64,000 nt of DNA, from assembly GCA_910575005.1 (NCBI GenBank), contig CAJTCL010000006.1, positions 62,001 through 126,000 of the forward strand, written 5' to 3'. How positions within the stretch are numbered: position 1 is the first letter of the stretch; every line of letters starts with the position of its first letter. The notes under the pieces are model-generated. The model searched no databases. It worked only from the letters and a program-made list of their open reading frames with translations, and had not been told where the DNA came from. Position numbers and translations under genes: made by a program. The DNA comes from Lachnospiraceae bacterium. GTDB taxonomy: Bacteria; Bacillota; Clostridia; Lachnospirales; Lachnospiraceae. This document shows positions 53,657 to 61,590 of this stretch, in pieces.

Positions 53657-54445
53657 GTGAAAACAGTGCTTACAATAGCCGGCAGCGATTGCAGCGGCGG
53701 TGCGGGTATACAGGCAGATTTAAAGACAATTACAGCATTTGGGTTGTATGGTGAGAGTGTGATCACAGCTCTGACTGCACAGAACACGATGGGGGTAACG
53801 GATATTTTGCCGATACCCCCTGATTTTTTGAAAAAACAGTTGCAATCTGTGTTTACAGATATTGTTCCAGATGCAGTGAAGTTAGGAATGATAACTGGTG
53901 TAGAGCAAATGGAGGTGATTAGAGATTGTCTAGTCAAATATCAGGCAAAACATATCGTGATGGATACTGTGATGGTGTCCACCAGCGGCAAGAATCTCAT
54001 GCAGCCGGAAGCAGTTGATTTTTATAGACAAGAATTGCTCCCGCTCGCACAATTATATACTCCAAATCTGCCAGAAGCAGAGATGTTGTTAAAAAGAACC
54101 ATTAAAACAAAGGAAGAAAGGGTTGCGGCAGTGAGGGAGTTTGCGTTACAATATAAAGGTATGGTTTATTTAAAAGGCGGACATGATGAACTTTGTGCAG
54201 ATGATCTGCTTTATGATGGACGCAAGCTTACCTGGTTTTTGGCGCCCCACCTTGCAAGCAACAATACACATGGGACAGGATGTACGTTATCATCCGCCAT
54301 TGCCTGTGGATTGGCGATGGAGCTTGGGGGTGAGGAAAGTGCTAGGAAAGCGAAGGAATATCTTACAGGGGCTATTGCAGATGGCCTGGATTTGGGCAGA
54401 GGAAATGGACCATTAAATCACATGTATCGAATGAAGAACTTGTAA
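53657..54445 (+). CDS. thiD: HMP / HMP-phosphate kinase
   Basis: A 262-residue ribokinase-fold kinase making HMP pyrophosphate. Family segments are LTIAGSDCSGGAGIQADLKTITAFGLYG, YTPNLPEAEMLL, YLKGGHDE and NNTHGTGCTLSSAIACGLA. The start is a GTG at 53657, 8 nt after TAGGAGGT. It is the last thi gene. No thiG, thiH, thiS or thiF is in the window, so this operon makes the pyrimidine de novo but depends on salvage for the thiazole. Confidence 0.96.
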   Translation: MKTVLTIAGSDCSGGAGIQADLKTITAFGLYGESVITALTAQNTMGVTDILPIPPDFLKKQLQSVFTDIVPDAVKLGMITGVEQMEVIRDCLVKYQAKHIVMDTVMVSTSGKNLMQPEAVDFYRQELLPLAQLYTPNLPEAEMLLKRTIKTKEERVAAVREFALQYKGMVYLKGGHDELCADDLLYDGRKLTWFLAPHLASNNTHGTGCTLSSAIACGLAMELGGEESARKAKEYLTGAIADGLDLGRGNGPLNHMYRMKNL

Positions 54446-54459
54446 AGGGGGCCTTGCTG

Positions 54460-55401
54460 ATGAGAAAAAAAATTGTGATACTGGCATTAGGGCTTTGTCT
54501 TTTGGCTGCCGCCTGCGCTGGGAAAGGGCAAAAGAAGGATGAAACTGACAAAAATATTGAGGAGGCGGCAGGAGAGAAAGAGGAACAGAAAAAGGATAAC
54601 AAGACCAAAAAGCAAGAAGAAACACAGAAAGAGGAAGAGGTCTCTAAAGATAAAAAGAAAGATAAGAAAGATCAGGCATCCTCTGAGGAGGAGATGGAGG
54701 AACAGGGAAAGGAACTCACAAAAGTACCAGAAGTTACTTTTACAGATTACTCCCAGGATATTCAGGATCCAGACACTGGTGCATTGCTGTTGGCGGTTAC
54801 AGAAAATTGTCCCGTGATATCTATACCAGAAAATGAAGCTGTTGCGGAGAGGATGAATATGGTTTTTCAAGAGCTTCATGAGAATAATCAAGCAATTATT
54901 CAGGAAGATATCGTGGATGCTAAAGATGCTTATCAAGCATTGTCTGAGGAAGAATTGGCTTCTTGGAGCGGTTATGGGTATGGACTAAGCTATAAGGTAA
55001 TGTATGCCTCTACACGAATTTTAAGTATTGAGGCAGAGAGCTACGAGTGGCAGGGGTCTGCCAGCCCAAATACTTGGTCCTCCTCCTATTGTTTTGATGT
55101 CACAAATGGAACGCTTTTGTATCTGGCAGATATTTTTACTGATAAAGCAGAGGCAGGGAAAATTGTTGAAAAGCATATTTTAGACACCATTACCAAAGAA
55201 CCTTACAAAGATGCCTTGATGGAGGATTATGAGAGTTATGTCTCCGATATCTTGACCGAAGATGTCTTTTATTTGAATGAAAAGGGCTTGGTGGTGATTT
55301 GTAATCCTAATATGGTGACAATTGGGGCAGCAGGAGTAATCGAAATTGAGATACCTTATAAGGAATTAAAGGATGTCATGAATGAGCGCTATGTCCTTTA
55401 A
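54460..55401 (+). CDS. RsiV-like lipoprotein (DUF4163/DUF3298)
   Basis: A 313-residue lipoprotein. The signal peptide ends LLAAAC, and a ~70-residue Lys/Glu/Gln-rich linker follows. The C-terminal domain shows YASTRILSIEAESYEWQGSASPNTWSSSYCFDVTNGTLLYLADIF and IPYKELKDVM, the DUF4163/DUF3298 arrangement of RsiV-type proteins. RsiV senses lysozyme and controls SigV, but no sigma factor gene is adjacent and the protein lacks a cytoplasmic anti-sigma part. Its role is thus open. AAGGGGG precedes ATG 54460. Confidence 0.82.
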   Translation: MRKKIVILALGLCLLAAACAGKGQKKDETDKNIEEAAGEKEEQKKDNKTKKQEETQKEEEVSKDKKKDKKDQASSEEEMEEQGKELTKVPEVTFTDYSQDIQDPDTGALLLAVTENCPVISIPENEAVAERMNMVFQELHENNQAIIQEDIVDAKDAYQALSEEELASWSGYGYGLSYKVMYASTRILSIEAESYEWQGSASPNTWSSSYCFDVTNGTLLYLADIFTDKAEAGKIVEKHILDTITKEPYKDALMEDYESYVSDILTEDVFYLNEKGLVVICNPNMVTIGAAGVIEIEIPYKELKDVMNERYVL

Positions 55402-55412
55402 GGAGGAGAGCT

Positions 55413-55889
55413 ATGGAAAAATCACCAATGACCACGTTGTGTTATATTGAAAAAGATGGAAAATATCTTATGATGCACAGAGTGAAAAAGCAGAAGGATG
55501 TCAATAAAGACAAATGGATTGGAATTGGCGGGCATTTTGAGATGGGGGAAAGCCCAGAGGAATGCCTGCTTCGGGAAGTAAAAGAGGAGACAGGTTTGTT
55601 GCTGACTAGTTTTTATTTTCGAGGCATCATAACATTTCATACAACTGGGTGGCCTCCAGAATACATATGTCTTTATACAGCAGACCAATTTCAGGGAACA
55701 TTGTCAGAGTGTGACGAGGGAACCTTGGAGTGGGTAGAAAAAGAATGCTTGCTTTCTCTGAATCTTTGGGAAGGAGATAAGATTTTTTTAAAGCTTTTGA
55801 TGGAGGGGGCTCCGTTTTTTTCTTTAAAGCTGAGCTACGAGAAGGATAAATTAACGGAGGCCATTCTAAATGGTGCTGCCATAGAGTGA
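55413..55889 (+). CDS. Nudix hydrolase
   Basis: A 158-residue MutT-like hydrolase. The complete Nudix box is GHFEMGESPEECLLREVKEE plus TGL (about residues 40-62), supplying the metal-binding glutamates. The overall pattern (MTTLCYIEKDGKYLMMHR, DKWIGIGG) is like 8-oxo-dGTP diphosphatase-type proteins. Substrate specificity is unproven. TAAGGAGGAG precedes ATG 55413. Confidence 0.9.
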   Translation: MEKSPMTTLCYIEKDGKYLMMHRVKKQKDVNKDKWIGIGGHFEMGESPEECLLREVKEETGLLLTSFYFRGIITFHTTGWPPEYICLYTADQFQGTLSECDEGTLEWVEKECLLSLNLWEGDKIFLKLLMEGAPFFSLKLSYEKDKLTEAILNGAAIE

Positions 55890-55903: not shown

Positions 55904-58900
55904 GTGAAAAAGAAGAAACGATGCCGAAAATGGATATCACTGGCTTTGGTATTCAGTCTAGGTCTGGGAATGACAGCCAATGCTCAAAAAAGTGGGGATA
56001 ATACGGTAAAACAAAAACAGGTGGAACAGACAGAGGAGCAGTCAGGTCAAAAAAGAGAACAGATTAAAAAGCAAACAGATTCGTTGAAAGATGATAAGAA
56101 GAAAGAGCAGACAGAAGACCTAAAAGATCAAGTAAAGGCCGAGGAGCTGGAAGAGACACAAGCAGAGCAAGCAAACGAGCCATCTTTGCAGATTAAGAAA
56201 AAGAAGAAAGAAAAGGCGAAAGAAGCAAACACCGGAGAACTGCAGTGGACAGAGGAAGAGCAGGTTGGAAATGTTGGTGTGGAAGCGGAACCAGTGCCAG
56301 ATTTAAAAAATGATCAGTATGCAGATGAAGACGAGGTGCGTGTCTTCATTGTTTTAAATGGGGATTCTGTACTGGAAAAAGGATATTCGGTCAAGGGATT
56401 GAGCGAAAATGATAGTGCACAAACTCTCTCAAAAGAGATTGAGACTGGACAGGGGGCAGTGGTAGAACAGATTCAGCGTGCGTTGGGGAATCATGCTATG
56501 AATGTGCGGTATCAGTTCAGCTTGCTCACGAATGCGGTCTCTGCAACTGTACAATATGATGATTTGGAAAAGATTCAGAAGGTGGCCGGCGTCAAGAATG
56601 TGTACGTAGTACCAGAATATCAGCTTCAAGATACTGCTGCACCCAATACAATTACGGCCGGCGAGATGGTGGGCAGCTATCAGGCCTGGGATAGTGGTTA
56701 TACAGGAGCAGGTCAGAGAATTGCCATTGTGGACACTGGGATTGATGTCAATCATCCTTCCTTTGATCCAGGTGCTTTATCTTATGGAAAAAGAGTGACA
56801 GCAGAGAAAATGGGGCGACTGACATCAACGGAGGAAGTGTTGGGAACAGCGGACATTGCCAAAGTGTTAAGCCAGCTCAAGGTTAGTCAAAATGGGAATA
56901 CAGTAAGCCCAGAAGCGTTACATGTCAATGATAAAATTGCTTTTGCCTTTAATTATGCAGGAGAAAATCTGGATATTTCGCATGAAAGCAATGATCATGG
57001 AACCCATGTGGCTGGTATTGCGGCTGCAAATCAATATATCCCACAGACAAATGGTGTCTATCAGGAGCAGCCAGAAGGTGTGTCAGGAATTGCCAAGGAT
57101 GCGCAGCTTTTGGTGATGAAAGTGTTTGGAAAAGATCAGATAGCATATACAGATGATTATATGGCAGCGGTTGAAGATGCTCTTCTACTGGAGGCAGATG
57201 TAGTAAATTTAAGCTTGGGAACACCAAATCCTGGAGAAAGTAAGGCTTTTGCAGGGGAGGAGTATGTAAATGAGATTTTTGATAGGCTTTTGGCAAGCGA
57301 TATGGTGGTAAGTATTTCTGCCGGCAACAATGGAAGCTGGTCAGATTCCAGCAGTCTTAGCCATAATCGGGCCGAAGATGTCAATATGAATATGCTGGGA
57401 GCACCAGGCTCCTATACCAATGCACTGACTGTGGCCAGTGCAATCAATGCGGGTTATACTGGATGTGGATTTCAGATTGGAAAACGTACATATTTTTATG
57501 GAGAGGCAGAAGCGCAAGCCAATATTCCTTCTATAACGACACTGGACACCAGCGGCAACGGCACAGATTATGAATATGTCTTTTTTGAATCTTTTGGAAA
57601 AGCTGCAGACTATCAGGGGTGGGATGTGAGAGGGAAAATTGTATTTGTCAAAAAAGGCGAAATCTCTTACATAGAAAAACATCAAAATGCCCAGAATGCT
57701 GGAGCAGCGGCATTATTTATCGTCAATGATGATTTTGGTTTTCCAAAACTGAATCTCGCCGGTTCTAAGGCTACCATTCCCTGTGGGATTGTTGGCTGGG
57801 AGGATAGCTGGAAGCTTTTGTCCAAAGAAGGGCAAAAAATTATCCGTATTCTATCAAAACCAATTTCAGATCATAAGACTGCAGAAGGATATAAGATGAG
57901 TGAATTTTCTGCTTGGGGTGTGCCAGGTGATTTGGCATTAAAACCAGAGATCACTGCACCAGGAGAAAATATCTATGCACCACAGGCAAATGGCGGCTAC
58001 GGATGTATGAGCGGAACCTCTATGGCGGCGCCCAGTATTGCTGGAATGAGTGCGGTTGTCTCAGAATATATACAGCGCAATGGTCTTGAACAAAAAACAG
58101 GTCTCAGCAGCAGAGTTTTGATACAATCTTTATTGATGAGTACAGCGATACCTTTAAAAGAGAAAGATAAGGAGGAATATTCTCCCCGCAAACAGGGGAG
58201 CGGTCTTGCCAATGTAAAGGCTGCCACCAGTACGCCGTCCTACCTTCTGGTCGGAGAAAAGCAGGGAAATGATGGTAAAGTAAAGGCAGAACTTGGAGAT
58301 GACCCCAATAAGAGTGGGGAATATACATTTTCTTTCCAGGTTTGCAATATCTCTGGTAAAAATCAGTATTATACTTTGGACAGTTCGATTCTCACAGAGC
58401 AAGTGCTGGATAATAAATGGATTCAAGGCAGTTCTTACAAATTACAGCCACAGGTGACATTTTCCTCTGAAAATGAGGTTTTAATGTATGATCTCAATGG
58501 AGATCAGCGGGTAGATCAGCAGGATGCATTACAACTTTTGCGCCATATCAATGAATCTGTGAAATTGGAACGAGTGGAGGGTAATCCTCAGAAATTTGAT
58601 TTTAATGGAGATGGTGCGCTTAATACAGCAGATGTCAATTGGTTTATGCAGGAGCTTGTAAAACAGCAGCCCACATTGAATTTTCAGGAAAAGACATTGG
58701 AGGTCAAAGAGCAGGCGCAAGTTTCTGTAAAAGTAGTATTGTCCAAGGCAGACAGAGAGTATTTAGATACTTATTTTAAACATGGCATGTATATTGATGG
58801 GTTTGTGTATTTAAGAGGTGCAGTTGATCTGTCAATTCCGATGCTGGCATTTTATGGAAACTGGACAGAATCTTCTATGTTTGAGCCATTTGATTATTTG

Positions 58901-60736
58901 CAATTTAGTAATCATGGTGATGATACATCAGCGATGTCCTATTCCGCTGTGGAGAGAACCAATTATCTAAGTTATTACGAAGCAGAGGCAGATAGTACAT
59001 ACTGCTATGCTTCCAATCTCTATCTTAAAGGCGGAGATCAGAAGTATCTGCCAGAGCGCAATGCATTTTCAAATGAATCTGGCGACAGTATTGAAAGTGT
59101 AGTATATACTTTAATCCGAAATGCGGCGATTGTGGAAACTTCGATTGTCAATGAAGAAACAGGGGAAGTTTATTATCAGGAACAGCAGGAGAACCTAGAA
59201 GGCGCATATTACGATTCTCAGGAGGGTAGATGGTGTAATACGGAATATATTTCTGCTCTGGACTGGAGAGGAACAGATGCAAAGGGGAAACCATTGCCTG
59301 AAGGAACTACTGTGCGTGTTACAATAACAGCTTTGCCAGAATATTATAAGGATAAGCCAGATCAGGCGGCAGACGGGGCAAGATTTAGTATTCCGATTAC
59401 AATAGACAATACCAAACCTAAGTTGATGGATATGCAGGACACAGCAGATGGAAAGATTCGCCTTGCTGTTGAGGATAACCGTTATACAGCAGCAGTAAAA
59501 GTCTACGCCAAAGATCAGGAAACTTTGTTAAAGACTTATGGAGTAAATCAGGAACAGCCTGGGGGAACAGTAGAACTTGATATCAAAGATCCGAAAAAAG
59601 TATTCTATTTGACATTAGTGGATTATGCTGGAAATACAACTTCCTATCGTGTCAACAGAAGTCAGAGTCCAGATACACCTTATGCAGATGGTGTTACTCT
59701 TGATCAGTCAACTATGAGACTGATTAAGGGAAATACAGGTCGCCTAAAGGCCACAGTAACGCCAGAAGGAGTTTTGGATGATACTGTAACCTGGAGCAGT
59801 GAAGATCCGACAATTGCTACCGTGAATAAAAAGGGTGTGGTGACAGGCATTATGCCTGGAACAACTAGAATCACAGCTACGGCCAACGCTGTAAATTCTA
59901 CGGGTGGATTGGAAACGGCAGTCTGTGAGGTAACAGTGGAAGAGATCTCCGTATTGCTAAATGGTTTGATCTGGTCTGGCAGTGGAGAAGTATATTTTTA
60001 TAATATTGATACAGCACGTTTGCCAGAATATAAGATATTATCAGGAAACCAGAAGACATATTATCAGGCAGCTGCTATGGTAAAAGAAAAGGTCTTTGCG
60101 ACAGTTGATCAAACGCAAGGAAATGTCCCACAATCAGAATTGTTTTTGATCGATCCAGCGGATAATTACAAAGCAGTTTCGCAAGGGAAAATGGATTGGT
60201 GTCCGGCAGATCTCGCATATAGTCCTAACACAAATATGGTATTTGGCGTGGAAGGAACTTATCTGCAATGGTTTGCAGCGGATGATCCGCAGGGAGAACA
60301 GGGAGCTGTGGATGTAGGCGGCCATACAGTTGGGGAAAACTTGGTTGGTATCGCTTATGCAGGATTTACCGATGAACAAAAATATGGGTCTGCGGAATGG
60401 TTTTATGCAGTCTCCCAGACGGGCGAGCTATTTCAGATTGGTTATAGAATAGAAGAAGATATCTTTGTCTATCGCGATCTGGGCAGCACAGGAATTGTTA
60501 CTGGGGATGAGAATAAATTTAATTCTCTTTATTATGATCAGGCAAGCGGATATATTTTCTGGAGTGTATATGATGGCGGTGACGCAGCAAAATTGTATGC
60601 GCTGGAAGTAGAAAATGACGGGGCAGGAAACAGCACTTATATCAGAACAAATCTTTTGGGAGCTTTCCCAGAAAATACTTGGCCGGCAATGCTGCTTGGT
60701 ACAGTGCCTAGCGGCAAAGATACTGAAAATGAGTAA
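55904..60736 (+). CDS. Giant extracellular subtilase carrying an internal dockerin
   Basis: A 1610-residue secreted S8 protease. Signal peptide; Lys/Glu/Gln-rich region to ~120; I9-like propeptide ~144-242. The catalytic triad is Asp277 (IVDTGIDVNHPSFD), His365 (HGTHVAG) and Ser706 (GTSMAAP). A PA insert lies near 544-612. Two calcium-binding dockerin repeats follow, DLNGDQRVDQQDALQLL (from 863) and DFNGDGALNTADVNWF (from 899). Then come lactocepin-like beta domains, a Big_2 domain (~1266-1350) and a propeller-like C-terminus. It has no cell-wall anchor. A cohesin-like membrane protein is encoded 17 nt downstream, so the dockerin may tether the protease there. GTG 55904 follows AGGAGGG; GTG 55886 is an alternative. 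Confidence 0.9.
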   Translation: MKKKKRCRKWISLALVFSLGLGMTANAQKSGDNTVKQKQVEQTEEQSGQKREQIKKQTDSLKDDKKKEQTEDLKDQVKAEELEETQAEQANEPSLQIKKKKKEKAKEANTGELQWTEEEQVGNVGVEAEPVPDLKNDQYADEDEVRVFIVLNGDSVLEKGYSVKGLSENDSAQTLSKEIETGQGAVVEQIQRALGNHAMNVRYQFSLLTNAVSATVQYDDLEKIQKVAGVKNVYVVPEYQLQDTAAPNTITAGEMVGSYQAWDSGYTGAGQRIAIVDTGIDVNHPSFDPGALSYGKRVTAEKMGRLTSTEEVLGTADIAKVLSQLKVSQNGNTVSPEALHVNDKIAFAFNYAGENLDISHESNDHGTHVAGIAAANQYIPQTNGVYQEQPEGVSGIAKDAQLLVMKVFGKDQIAYTDDYMAAVEDALLLEADVVNLSLGTPNPGESKAFAGEEYVNEIFDRLLASDMVVSISAGNNGSWSDSSSLSHNRAEDVNMNMLGAPGSYTNALTVASAINAGYTGCGFQIGKRTYFYGEAEAQANIPSITTLDTSGNGTDYEYVFFESFGKAADYQGWDVRGKIVFVKKGEISYIEKHQNAQNAGAAALFIVNDDFGFPKLNLAGSKATIPCGIVGWEDSWKLLSKEGQKIIRILSKPISDHKTAEGYKMSEFSAWGVPGDLALKPEITAPGENIYAPQANGGYGCMSGTSMAAPSIAGMSAVVSEYIQRNGLEQKTGLSSRVLIQSLLMSTAIPLKEKDKEEYSPRKQGSGLANVKAATSTPSYLLVGEKQGNDGKVKAELGDDPNKSGEYTFSFQVCNISGKNQYYTLDSSILTEQVLDNKWIQGSSYKLQPQVTFSSENEVLMYDLNGDQRVDQQDALQLLRHINESVKLERVEGNPQKFDFNGDGALNTADVNWFMQELVKQQPTLNFQEKTLEVKEQAQVSVKVVLSKADREYLDTYFKHGMYIDGFVYLRGAVDLSIPMLAFYGNWTESSMFEPFDYLQFSNHGDDTSAMSYSAVERTNYLSYYEAEADSTYCYASNLYLKGGDQKYLPERNAFSNESGDSIESVVYTLIRNAAIVETSIVNEETGEVYYQEQQENLEGAYYDSQEGRWCNTEYISALDWRGTDAKGKPLPEGTTVRVTITALPEYYKDKPDQAADGARFSIPITIDNTKPKLMDMQDTADGKIRLAVEDNRYTAAVKVYAKDQETLLKTYGVNQEQPGGTVELDIKDPKKVFYLTLVDYAGNTTSYRVNRSQSPDTPYADGVTLDQSTMRLIKGNTGRLKATVTPEGVLDDTVTWSSEDPTIATVNKKGVVTGIMPGTTRITATANAVNSTGGLETAVCEVTVEEISVLLNGLIWSGSGEVYFYNIDTARLPEYKILSGNQKTYYQAAAMVKEKVFATVDQTQGNVPQSELFLIDPADNYKAVSQGKMDWCPADLAYSPNTNMVFGVEGTYLQWFAADDPQGEQGAVDVGGHTVGENLVGIAYAGFTDEQKYGSAEWFYAVSQTGELFQIGYRIEEDIFVYRDLGSTGIVTGDENKFNSLYYDQASGYIFWSVYDGGDAAKLYALEVENDGAGNSTYIRTNLLGAFPENTWPAMLLGTVPSGKDTENE

Positions 60737-60753
60737 AAGAAGGAGGCTGGAAC

Positions 60754-61410
60754 ATGCAGAGAAATAAAATCAATTGTCAAAAGTGTTACCATAGTTTTGT
60801 TGTTCTGTCATTCGTGTTGCTGGCTGCAATTCTCTTACAGAGCTGGGGAATTTCAGTAAAAGCTGCCGATCCTGGTAATCCAGAACAGCCTATCACTACT
60901 AAGATTAGTGGACAGGGAAGAAATGTTACATTGACGATAAATCTTGAATCATATAGCCAAGCGACCAGCGGCAGGTTAAAAATACGTTACCCCAAGGATT
61001 TGTTAGTATTGTCATCTACACAGAGTGGGAATCTTTGGAAGGTAGAGGATCTCAATACTGGAATGGAGGAGTCAACGCAGAAAGTAATTGCCTATGCCTG
61101 GGCAGACACCGAAGCAAAAACGAATGCGGGAACAATTTTGACCTTGAACTTGGAGGCTCAAAATACGGCAAGTGGAAGAGAAATTACAGTGGAGACAGAG
61201 ATTGTAGAACTGTATTCCCAGCAAGAAAGAATTGTGCCGAAGAATGATAAAATCATCGATCGGCTGCGAACAGATTTTACTGTCACATCATCACAGGCAG
61301 GAGGTGCTGTCCGCACTGGAGATGATACCAATGTGGCATTATATGTCTTGTTAGGATTAGGTTCTATTCTGGTAATGGTGGGATTGGTTCGCAGTAAAGT
61401 AGAACACTAA
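60754..61410 (+). CDS. Membrane-anchored cohesin-like protein
   Basis: A 218-residue surface protein. A signal/membrane segment (~14-37) is followed by a single beta-rich domain (~45-155) with cohesin-type blocks: VTLTINLESYSQATSGRLKIRYP, then LLVLSSTQSGNLW, IAYAWADT, NAGTILTLNLEAQ and ITVETEIVELY. A C-terminal membrane helix (VALYVLLGLGSILVMVGLV) with a basic end is preceded by AVRTGDDTN, which may be a degenerate sortase signal. AAGGAGG precedes ATG 60754. The gene follows the dockerin-bearing protease in the same operon, so it is the natural candidate receptor. The cohesin call is by eye and needs a profile search. Confidence 0.65.
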   Translation: MQRNKINCQKCYHSFVVLSFVLLAAILLQSWGISVKAADPGNPEQPITTKISGQGRNVTLTINLESYSQATSGRLKIRYPKDLLVLSSTQSGNLWKVEDLNTGMEESTQKVIAYAWADTEAKTNAGTILTLNLEAQNTASGREITVETEIVELYSQQERIVPKNDKIIDRLRTDFTVTSSQAGGAVRTGDDTNVALYVLLGLGSILVMVGLVRSKVEH

Positions 61411-61428: not shown

Positions 61429-61521
61429 ACTATTCACAATTCCAAGCTAAAGACATGCGAACAGAGCTGTCATATGTCTCTAAGAGGCTTTCGTCTATGG
61501 ATTAGGGATTGTCATCCTCAT
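61429..61521 (+). repeat. Dispersed ~100-nt element, copy 2
   Basis: It aligns with the reverse complement of 19162-19266 over nearly its whole length. AGACAT/ATGTCT can pair within it. It lies right after the cohesin-like gene and directly before the strong terminator at 61521-61578. It could be a 3' UTR element or an independent small RNA. Confidence 0.6.
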
Positions 61522-61578
61522 GGAAAAGAAAATCAGACCTTTTCATCTTTTTTGAAAAGGTCTGATTTTCTTTTTCCA
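61521..61578. terminator. Strong bidirectional terminator
   Basis: GAAAATCAGACCTTTTC (61528-61544) pairs perfectly with 61554-61570. The stem extends with GGAAAA/TTTTCC to about 24 bp with one bulge, and T and A runs lie on both sides. It separates the protease/cohesin operon from the convergent glycosylase gene. Confidence 0.92.
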
Positions 61579-61590
61579 TAGATTCTATAA

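Follow-up and report, generated by a model that had tools for sequence, protein, structure and literature searches.

The window analysed here is a stretch of 64,000 nucleotides (nt) from a gut bacterium of the Lachnospiraceae (GCA_910575005.1, contig CAJTCL010000006.1, positions 62,001-126,000). On its forward strand lie two adjoining genes, one encoding a large subtilase with a dockerin module and the other a small protein with a cohesin domain. Dockerins are calcium-dependent binders, and cohesin-dockerin pairs have mostly been catalogued as parts of cellulosomes, best known from cellulose digestion. A first-pass annotation of this DNA proposed that the two genes form a dedicated unit in which the small protein tethers the protease to its own cell.

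The dockerin subtilase and its cohesin neighbour

The subtilase gene and the domains of its product are as follows:

55904..60736, + strand: subtilase gene; secreted, C5a-peptidase-like protein of 1610 amino acids (aa) without a C-terminal anchor
56705..58204, + strand: Peptidase_S8 catalytic domain (Pfam 148.7 bits, residues 268-767)
57599..57811, + strand: PA domain, inserted in the catalytic domain (Pfam 42.6 bits, residues 566-636)
58211..58915, + strand: Fn3-like domain (Fn1 of C5a peptidases) with a helical insert (AlphaFold2; predicted local distance difference test, pLDDT, 89.9; predicted template modelling score, pTM, 0.82)
58487..58657, + strand: type I dockerin module with two calcium loops, in the Fn3-like domain (Pfam, residues 862-918)
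59687..59899, + strand: Big_2 Ig-like domain (Pfam 53.7 bits)

The protease also has a signal segment, and its further C-terminal part matches no recognised family. D277, H365, N475 and S706, which we take to lie in the usual S8 motif contexts, are invariant in all 13 aligned proteases; the S8 profile match and the Asp/His/Ser triad bear out the full catalytic triad that had been read at first. The Fn3-like segment was modelled by AlphaFold2 from 35 sequences (residues 776-1010, numbering from 55886), and in Foldseek the top 11 places go to C5a peptidases and chemokine proteases of streptococci, with template modelling (TM) scores of 0.47-0.50 of the query. The protein falls outside NF040553 (SGO_0316 LPXTG-anchored serine peptidase), scoring 214 bits where more than 1400 are required and having no hydrophobic tail. 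When C-terminal hydrophobicity is taken as the best 17-residue mean with a threshold of 1.6, the window protease reaches 0.62 and the small protein 2.51, and none of the 23 proteases of the pair set described below exceeds the threshold (largest 1.26, in locus L031). The subtilase indeed has no anchor of its own, as had been stated.

Within the Fn3-like domain, Dockerin_1 (PF00404) matches at 34.2 bits against a cut-off of 22.9 (E 3e-8, model positions 2-56 of 57), and the calcium loops start at residues 863 (DLNGDQRVDQQD) and 899 (DFNGDGALNTAD) of the 1610-aa numbering, the very positions at which two dockerin-like repeats had been noticed. The same family is matched by 13/13 aligned proteases at E<=0.01. 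In the AlphaFold2 model, a beta domain, helices come between the strands where the dockerin lies (model 103-150), and the blocks there have a pLDDT of 91-98. Foldseek with the Fn3-dockerin segment gave no dockerin among the 50 rows listed; thus, the identification as a dockerin rests on Pfam and the predicted helix pattern. According to the model, the dockerin sits as an insertion inside the Fn3-like domain that comes after the catalytic domain, not at the protein end. This internal location had been called odd, but internal dockerins are on record, as the excerpt of PMC2930009 gives 32 internal, 156 C-terminal and 19 N-terminal dockerins for Ruminococcus flavefaciens; what stands of the remark is that insertion inside an Fn3-like domain is less usual. 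This insertion is common to the window protease and its anchored giant relatives. In four relatives (L091, L103, L106 and L124), the match to the profile of the Fn3-dockerin segment does not begin before position 155-162, as would be expected if they lack the insert.

The features of the second gene are:

60754..61410, + strand: small cohesin protein gene, 218 aa, with signal segment, cohesin and membrane tail
60907..61233, + strand: cohesin domain (Pfam residues 52-160; nine-stranded model; cohesins in Foldseek)
61309..61407, + strand: VRTGD, hydrophobic segment and RSK tail; variant sorting signal or membrane anchor, with a presumed sortase role

Cohesin (PF00963) matches the small protein once, at 27.0 bits against a cut-off of 24.1 (E 5.8e-6), and is found in 12 of the 13 aligned small proteins at E<=0.01. 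Modelled from six sequences, residues 38-180 form nine strands in a cohesin fold (pLDDT 88.7, pTM 0.83). In Foldseek against the PDB, 48 of the 50 rows listed are cohesin or cohesin-dockerin entries, the first being the non-cellulosomal cohesin of Archaeoglobus fulgidus (E 1.9e-6, TM 0.62) and the two others YcnI and a DUF4466 protein. Searching the PDB by sequence alone returned no cohesin for the small protein, only chance kinase matches. The cohesin-like domain announced for the next gene, 17 nt away, is thus confirmed by both profile and fold.

The hydrophobic tail of the small protein agrees with the C-terminal membrane helix of the first-pass annotation. However, because VRTGD stands before the membrane tail, TG tails occur on other proteins and tail matches are found family-wide, the sequence reads more like a variant sortase signal than a simple membrane helix. 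Very large proteins across Lachnospiraceae match the tail part of the small-protein profile, and the window's own genome has five sortase matches. The NCBIfam model for LPXTG sortase substrates, TIGR01167, gives the small protein 12.0 bits, below its 15.9. Among 20 distinct TG tails outside cohesin proteins in the fetched DNA, the second motif place is V in 8 and P in 6; V-x-T-G-D was therefore rejected as the main sorting signal of the family, being common but not dominant. As a separate observation, V-[KRQ]-T-G-D followed by a hydrophobic segment and a basic end recurs on large surface proteins of the family, with V replacing P.

Conservation, gene layout and dockerin census

The pair is conserved as a one-to-one unit across five genera, including Butyrivibrio, with 23 pairs in total (21 strong and two weaker family matches). 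In the genus (29 genomes), the small protein was matched in 11 genomes and the protease in 14. Those 11 are among the 14 and are matched over most of the protease length, with the cohesin gene directly 3' of the protease gene in 11/11; the other three are matched in the catalytic part only, and have no small-protein match and no dockerin or cohesin by local profiles within 4.9-5.4 kb each. A family search (250 genomes) with the small protein matched 9. Seven of these are cohesins by a local profile built from 13 small proteins, four of the seven belonging to its training set, and all seven lie in a cluster with a dockerin gene; four of them adjoin subtilases (the window and genomes G176, G130 and G049). 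The other two matches, L033 and L037, are not cohesins by this profile and were excluded from the pairing count.

The order search (392 genomes; 13-protein alignment A1; at most 6 candidates scored per genome) matched 51 genomes. Eleven of its 61 rows have E below 1e-20, and 35 of the remaining 50 start at profile position >=114, covering mostly the C-terminal tail. The identical 11 of the 392 genomes carry strong matches to both proteins, the protease matches having 44-100% identity and E below 1e-290. Four further genomes have weaker protease matches of other architecture (G140, G279, G289 and G548), G140 also having a GH3 cluster. Ten strong order loci lie outside the genus, in two other genera, and there the cohesin gene comes directly after the protease gene in 10/10. 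All 21 strong small-protein matches (E<1e-20; 11 genus, 10 order) directly follow a dockerin subtilase. For the small-protein matches, 34 loci were fetched (11 genus, 7 other family, 16 other order); the order matches L177-L182 are other loci, L179 and L182 without an assigned class, and are excluded from the pair set.

Seven genes that flank the window's pair were looked for near the pair at the 22 other loci. Ten of these loci, all from the genus, have between 2 and 7 of the genes, and the remaining 12 have none; the adjacency is thus kept where the neighbourhood differs. The protease and small-protein trees have 13 of 20 splits in common. Adjacency over five genera, co-occurrence and the single dockerin in the genome speak for the dedicated two-gene unit that had been proposed.

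The two genes probably form a single transcript, since a pattern scan listed no terminator between them and a strong hairpin follows the second gene. The signals around the junction are:

60740..60746, + strand: AAGGAGG, Shine-Dalgarno-like sequence of the cohesin gene, read from the sequence, inside the 17-nt gap
61520..61580, + strand: strong hairpin, probable terminator downstream of both genes (-36.2 kcal/mol, z -9.57 for 61515-61585)

The pattern scan does not contain this hairpin and lists a weaker site at 61476-61488 instead. The protease stop lies at 60734-60736, and its start is likely the GTG at 55904, with AAAGGAGGG just upstream; a longer alternative frame from GTG 55886 overlaps the stop of the upstream NUDIX gene. 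In nine of the ten Butyrivibrio-type loci, GGAGGA of the cohesin gene lies within the last codons of the protease gene, and the cohesin gene, with start codons picked by eye, seems to begin inside or at the stop codon of the protease gene, making it likely that the translation of the two genes is coupled there. In the tenth, L171, GGAGGA is located after the protease stop. A recurrent Gly-Gly near the protease C-terminus of the Butyrivibrio type was considered as a processing motif and rejected, because the two glycines are encoded by GGAGGA, the ribosome-binding site from which the overlapping cohesin gene is translated. The same strand also carries, upstream of the two genes at window 53657-55889, a phosphomethylpyrimidine kinase, a DUF3298/PdaC-like protein and the NUDIX gene, relatives of which flank the pair in the genus.

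The window's own genome has one Pfam dockerin match at E<=1 (14/14 candidates scored) and one cohesin match by the 13-protein profile (6 of 18 candidates scored), with neither the several dockerin enzymes nor the multi-cohesin scaffoldin of a cellulosome among them. A Pfam count of its cohesins was dropped because the known domain was missed by it. Among the 23 pair genomes, 22 have a dockerin over the Pfam cut-off, in each case within the protease; in G572, the protease dockerin was recovered by the local profile, with no Pfam match over the cut-off. As the genome holds one dockerin, we read the couple as a one-to-one unit and not a cellulosome, and a cellulosome-like complex in this genome was rejected. 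That the pair belongs to a larger cellulosome-like assembly with multiple dockerin enzymes is very improbable. Six of the 23 pair genomes do have two or more dockerin matches (some of those in G255 lie in a single protein), and additional dockerin or cohesin proteins occur in a few, among them a 2646-aa protein of G255 with both a cohesin and a dockerin match; however, 16/23 pair genomes have exactly one dockerin match, as the window's own does, and the partner carries a single cohesin.

Readings of the pair

We propose that the two genes probably encode a private one-to-one cohesin-dockerin unit that displays the protease. The subtilase would be secreted without an anchor of its own, and the dockerin in its Fn3-like domain would bind, in a calcium-dependent manner, the single cohesin from the next gene. 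In the window's genus, the TGD-type tail, presumably processed by sortase, would hold the cohesin protein in the envelope, thus displaying the protease on the producing cell. In Butyrivibrio-type bacteria, the same couple exists, with the cohesin carrier ending in an Fn3-like stretch. The role may be nutritional, namely protein breakdown at the cell surface.

Several observations, here and among the giant relatives below, weigh against this proposal. The 23 pairs are related by descent and are not independent events, and the weaker matches L033-L037 and L177-L182 have no such subtilase alongside. Pfam cohesin scores are modest, exceeding the cut-off in 13/23 pair genomes, and a six-frame Pfam search (E<=1) recovers the partner in 21/23 and misses that of the window. 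The L174 partner is unmatched in both Pfam searches; the L031 partner is unmatched in hmmscan, yet has 27.6 bits in the genome search. The 8-3-6-5 face of the cohesin is the one that we would presume, from type I complexes, to bind the dockerin; its conservation was discarded as support, as the difference from the other sheet is not significant (1075/10000 shuffles reach it). Finally, 11/23 partners (L032 and L167-L176, 10 of them from Butyrivibrio-type loci) lack a hydrophobic tail and have an Fn3-like stretch at their C-terminus instead (label by eye; no Pfam Fn3 in the six scanned).

The tailless partners bring in another possibility, that the cohesin protein assists or regulates the protease (as an exosite, chaperone or substrate binder) and is not an anchor. 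We regard such a role as unlikely, although it would suit the Butyrivibrio-type partners without a membrane tail and the location of the dockerin in the domain following the catalytic domain. The other 12/23 partners have a hydrophobic tail over 1.6, each preceded by a T-G-D motif, which is of the surface-display kind and is found on none of the proteases. The earlier idea of a tether to the producing cell has a good basis only in these 12 and, given the 11 without a tail, finds no support as a general rule.

The giant relatives are the main evidence that the insert may serve without a cohesin partner. Among the best 80 of 335 relatives in a named-genome scan are many giants of about 2000-2700 aa, from hosts such as Oscillospiraceae and Erysipelotrichaceae. 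Those aligned run through the dockerin-like insert, mostly with calcium-loop-like residues, and Pfam finds a dockerin over the cut-off in 1/5 scanned (L083). Some have anchors of their own by eye, namely SLH tails in L062 and L064 and LPXTG-type tails in L071 and L073. With the local cohesin profile, the giant-scan loci, several of which end inside or soon after the protease, show no separate cohesin gene except in five pairs of the present type (L058, L059, L086, L087 and L094, all from genomes already counted). Judged by these sequences, the insert can be present for a reason other than a cohesin partner. It might be a calcium-stabilised structural part of the Fn3-like domain, with the cohesin binding something else or nothing on the protease. 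The confident modelling of insert and Fn3-like domain as one unit would agree with this, as do the anchored giants. We nevertheless find this explanation rather improbable, given that the cohesin gene adjoins 21/21 strong protease matches (11 genus, 10 further order genomes), that strong matches to the two proteins coincide in 11/392 order genomes, and that related cohesins cluster with unrelated dockerin proteins.

In L035 and L036, such cohesins are clustered with GH3 enzymes bearing C-terminal dockerins (37.0 and 28.5 bits), L035 having a second cohesin-like gene between the cohesin and GH3 genes; in L034, the cohesin adjoins a repeat protein with an N-terminal dockerin (38.9 bits). Standing beside dockerin proteins that are not subtilases, the cohesin thus tracks the dockerin and not the subtilase.

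Some further arrangements of cohesins and dockerins were noted. Both GH3 clusters (L035:6897-13034 and L036:291-6618) have two cohesin-like genes, and one L035 cohesin protein reaches 20.0 bits (cut-off 20) in the Pfam Gram-positive anchor model. In L177, L178 and L180, a cohesin-like and a dockerin module lie side by side near the C-terminus of single proteins. At L181:8739-14726, outside the family, a protein with cohesin domains (Pfam 70.6 bits) adjoins a Big_2 protein with a C-terminal dockerin, which makes another adjoining couple.

In one giant, from L082, a single chain combines the protease with a cohesin recognised by Pfam (36.9 bits) and a hydrophobic tail; the insert of this giant is not recognised by Pfam. 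This single example hints at a split or fusion between the two-gene unit and single-chain proteases. A cohesin in cis was rejected as a general feature of the giants; Pfam finds one (L082) among L083, L082, L068, L071 and L065, and the local cohesin profile gives no more than weak matches in L083, L068 and L071. The protease C-termini of L065, L068, L069, L072, L080 and L107 are alike over about 70 residues (type AALTYANKILA...KALYIYNEMAEIYF) and have no recognised anchor; this stretch is possibly an undescribed surface-retention domain of giant subtilases from gut and rumen Clostridia. Two giant subtilases lie close together on the same strand in L068:9677-25418, L069:9803-25419 and L082:2378-18139.

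Beyond the one-to-one display unit proposed here, we offer tentatively, as a possibility short of an even chance, that private cohesin-dockerin pairs are a general, non-cellulosomal means of displaying single enzymes (subtilases, GH3 enzymes, repeat proteins) in Lachnospiraceae and relatives. The subtilase unit would then be related to anchored single-chain proteases by split or fusion, as in L082, and might explain the cell-bound serine protease activity that is reported for Butyrivibrio.

Comparison with known systems

Divergent cohesins such as these, many under the Pfam cut-off and each beside a dockerin enzyme, can escape cohesin counts. Should the binding be demonstrated, the pair would offer a directly testable account of how these gut and rumen organisms keep a protease on their surface, and protein engineers would have a naturally occurring series of one-to-one pairs.

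In its domains, the subtilase resembles streptococcal C5a peptidase, SpyCEP and SGO_0316 in the S8 domain, the PA insert and the following Fn3-like domain, all three being anchored cell-envelope proteases. The SGO_0316 family is named as LPXTG-anchored, whereas the window subtilase has no anchor and carries a dockerin within the Fn3-like domain. On the side of the cohesin, the closest solved folds include the non-cellulosomal cohesins of A. fulgidus and Clostridium perfringens (2xdh, 2vo8, 2jh2), whose hosts and partners are other than those of the window.

The pair shares with the cellulosome, amylosome and mucinolysome a type I dockerin on a secreted enzyme, a cohesin on another protein and, as proposed here, surface anchoring by way of the cohesin protein. 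It differs in having one cohesin, one dockerin and one protease encoded by adjoining genes; a multi-cohesin scaffoldin was not found. Dockerins on peptidases are also described in the excerpts on R. flavefaciens and Limousia (PMC2930009, PMC12997984), where they belong to multi-cohesin scaffoldin systems. In Ruminococcus albus, a single cohesin is thought, according to the excerpt of PMC6118326, to hold isolated dockerin enzymes at the cell surface; there, one cohesin serves many dockerins, whereas here a private couple is encoded side by side.

According to the excerpt of PMC11557425, Lachnoclostridium sp. MSJ-17 has proteins that, like the window partner, combine one cohesin with a C-terminal membrane helix, and Acetivibrio mesophilus has a scaffoldin in which a cohesin-dockerin unit occurs together with an S8-peptidase-like domain. 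These two appear to be the nearest published relatives in kind among the matches listed, although MSJ-17 encodes four cohesin proteins with as many as 39 dockerin partners, and the excerpt describes no placement of them beside one particular enzyme (PMC11557425). By their titles and the starts of their abstracts, none of the publications among the matches listed describes a subtilase with a dedicated adjoining cohesin. The one-to-one protease unit is real and conserved and, with the binding and tethering that we infer, is a variation on the known cohesin-dockerin theme.

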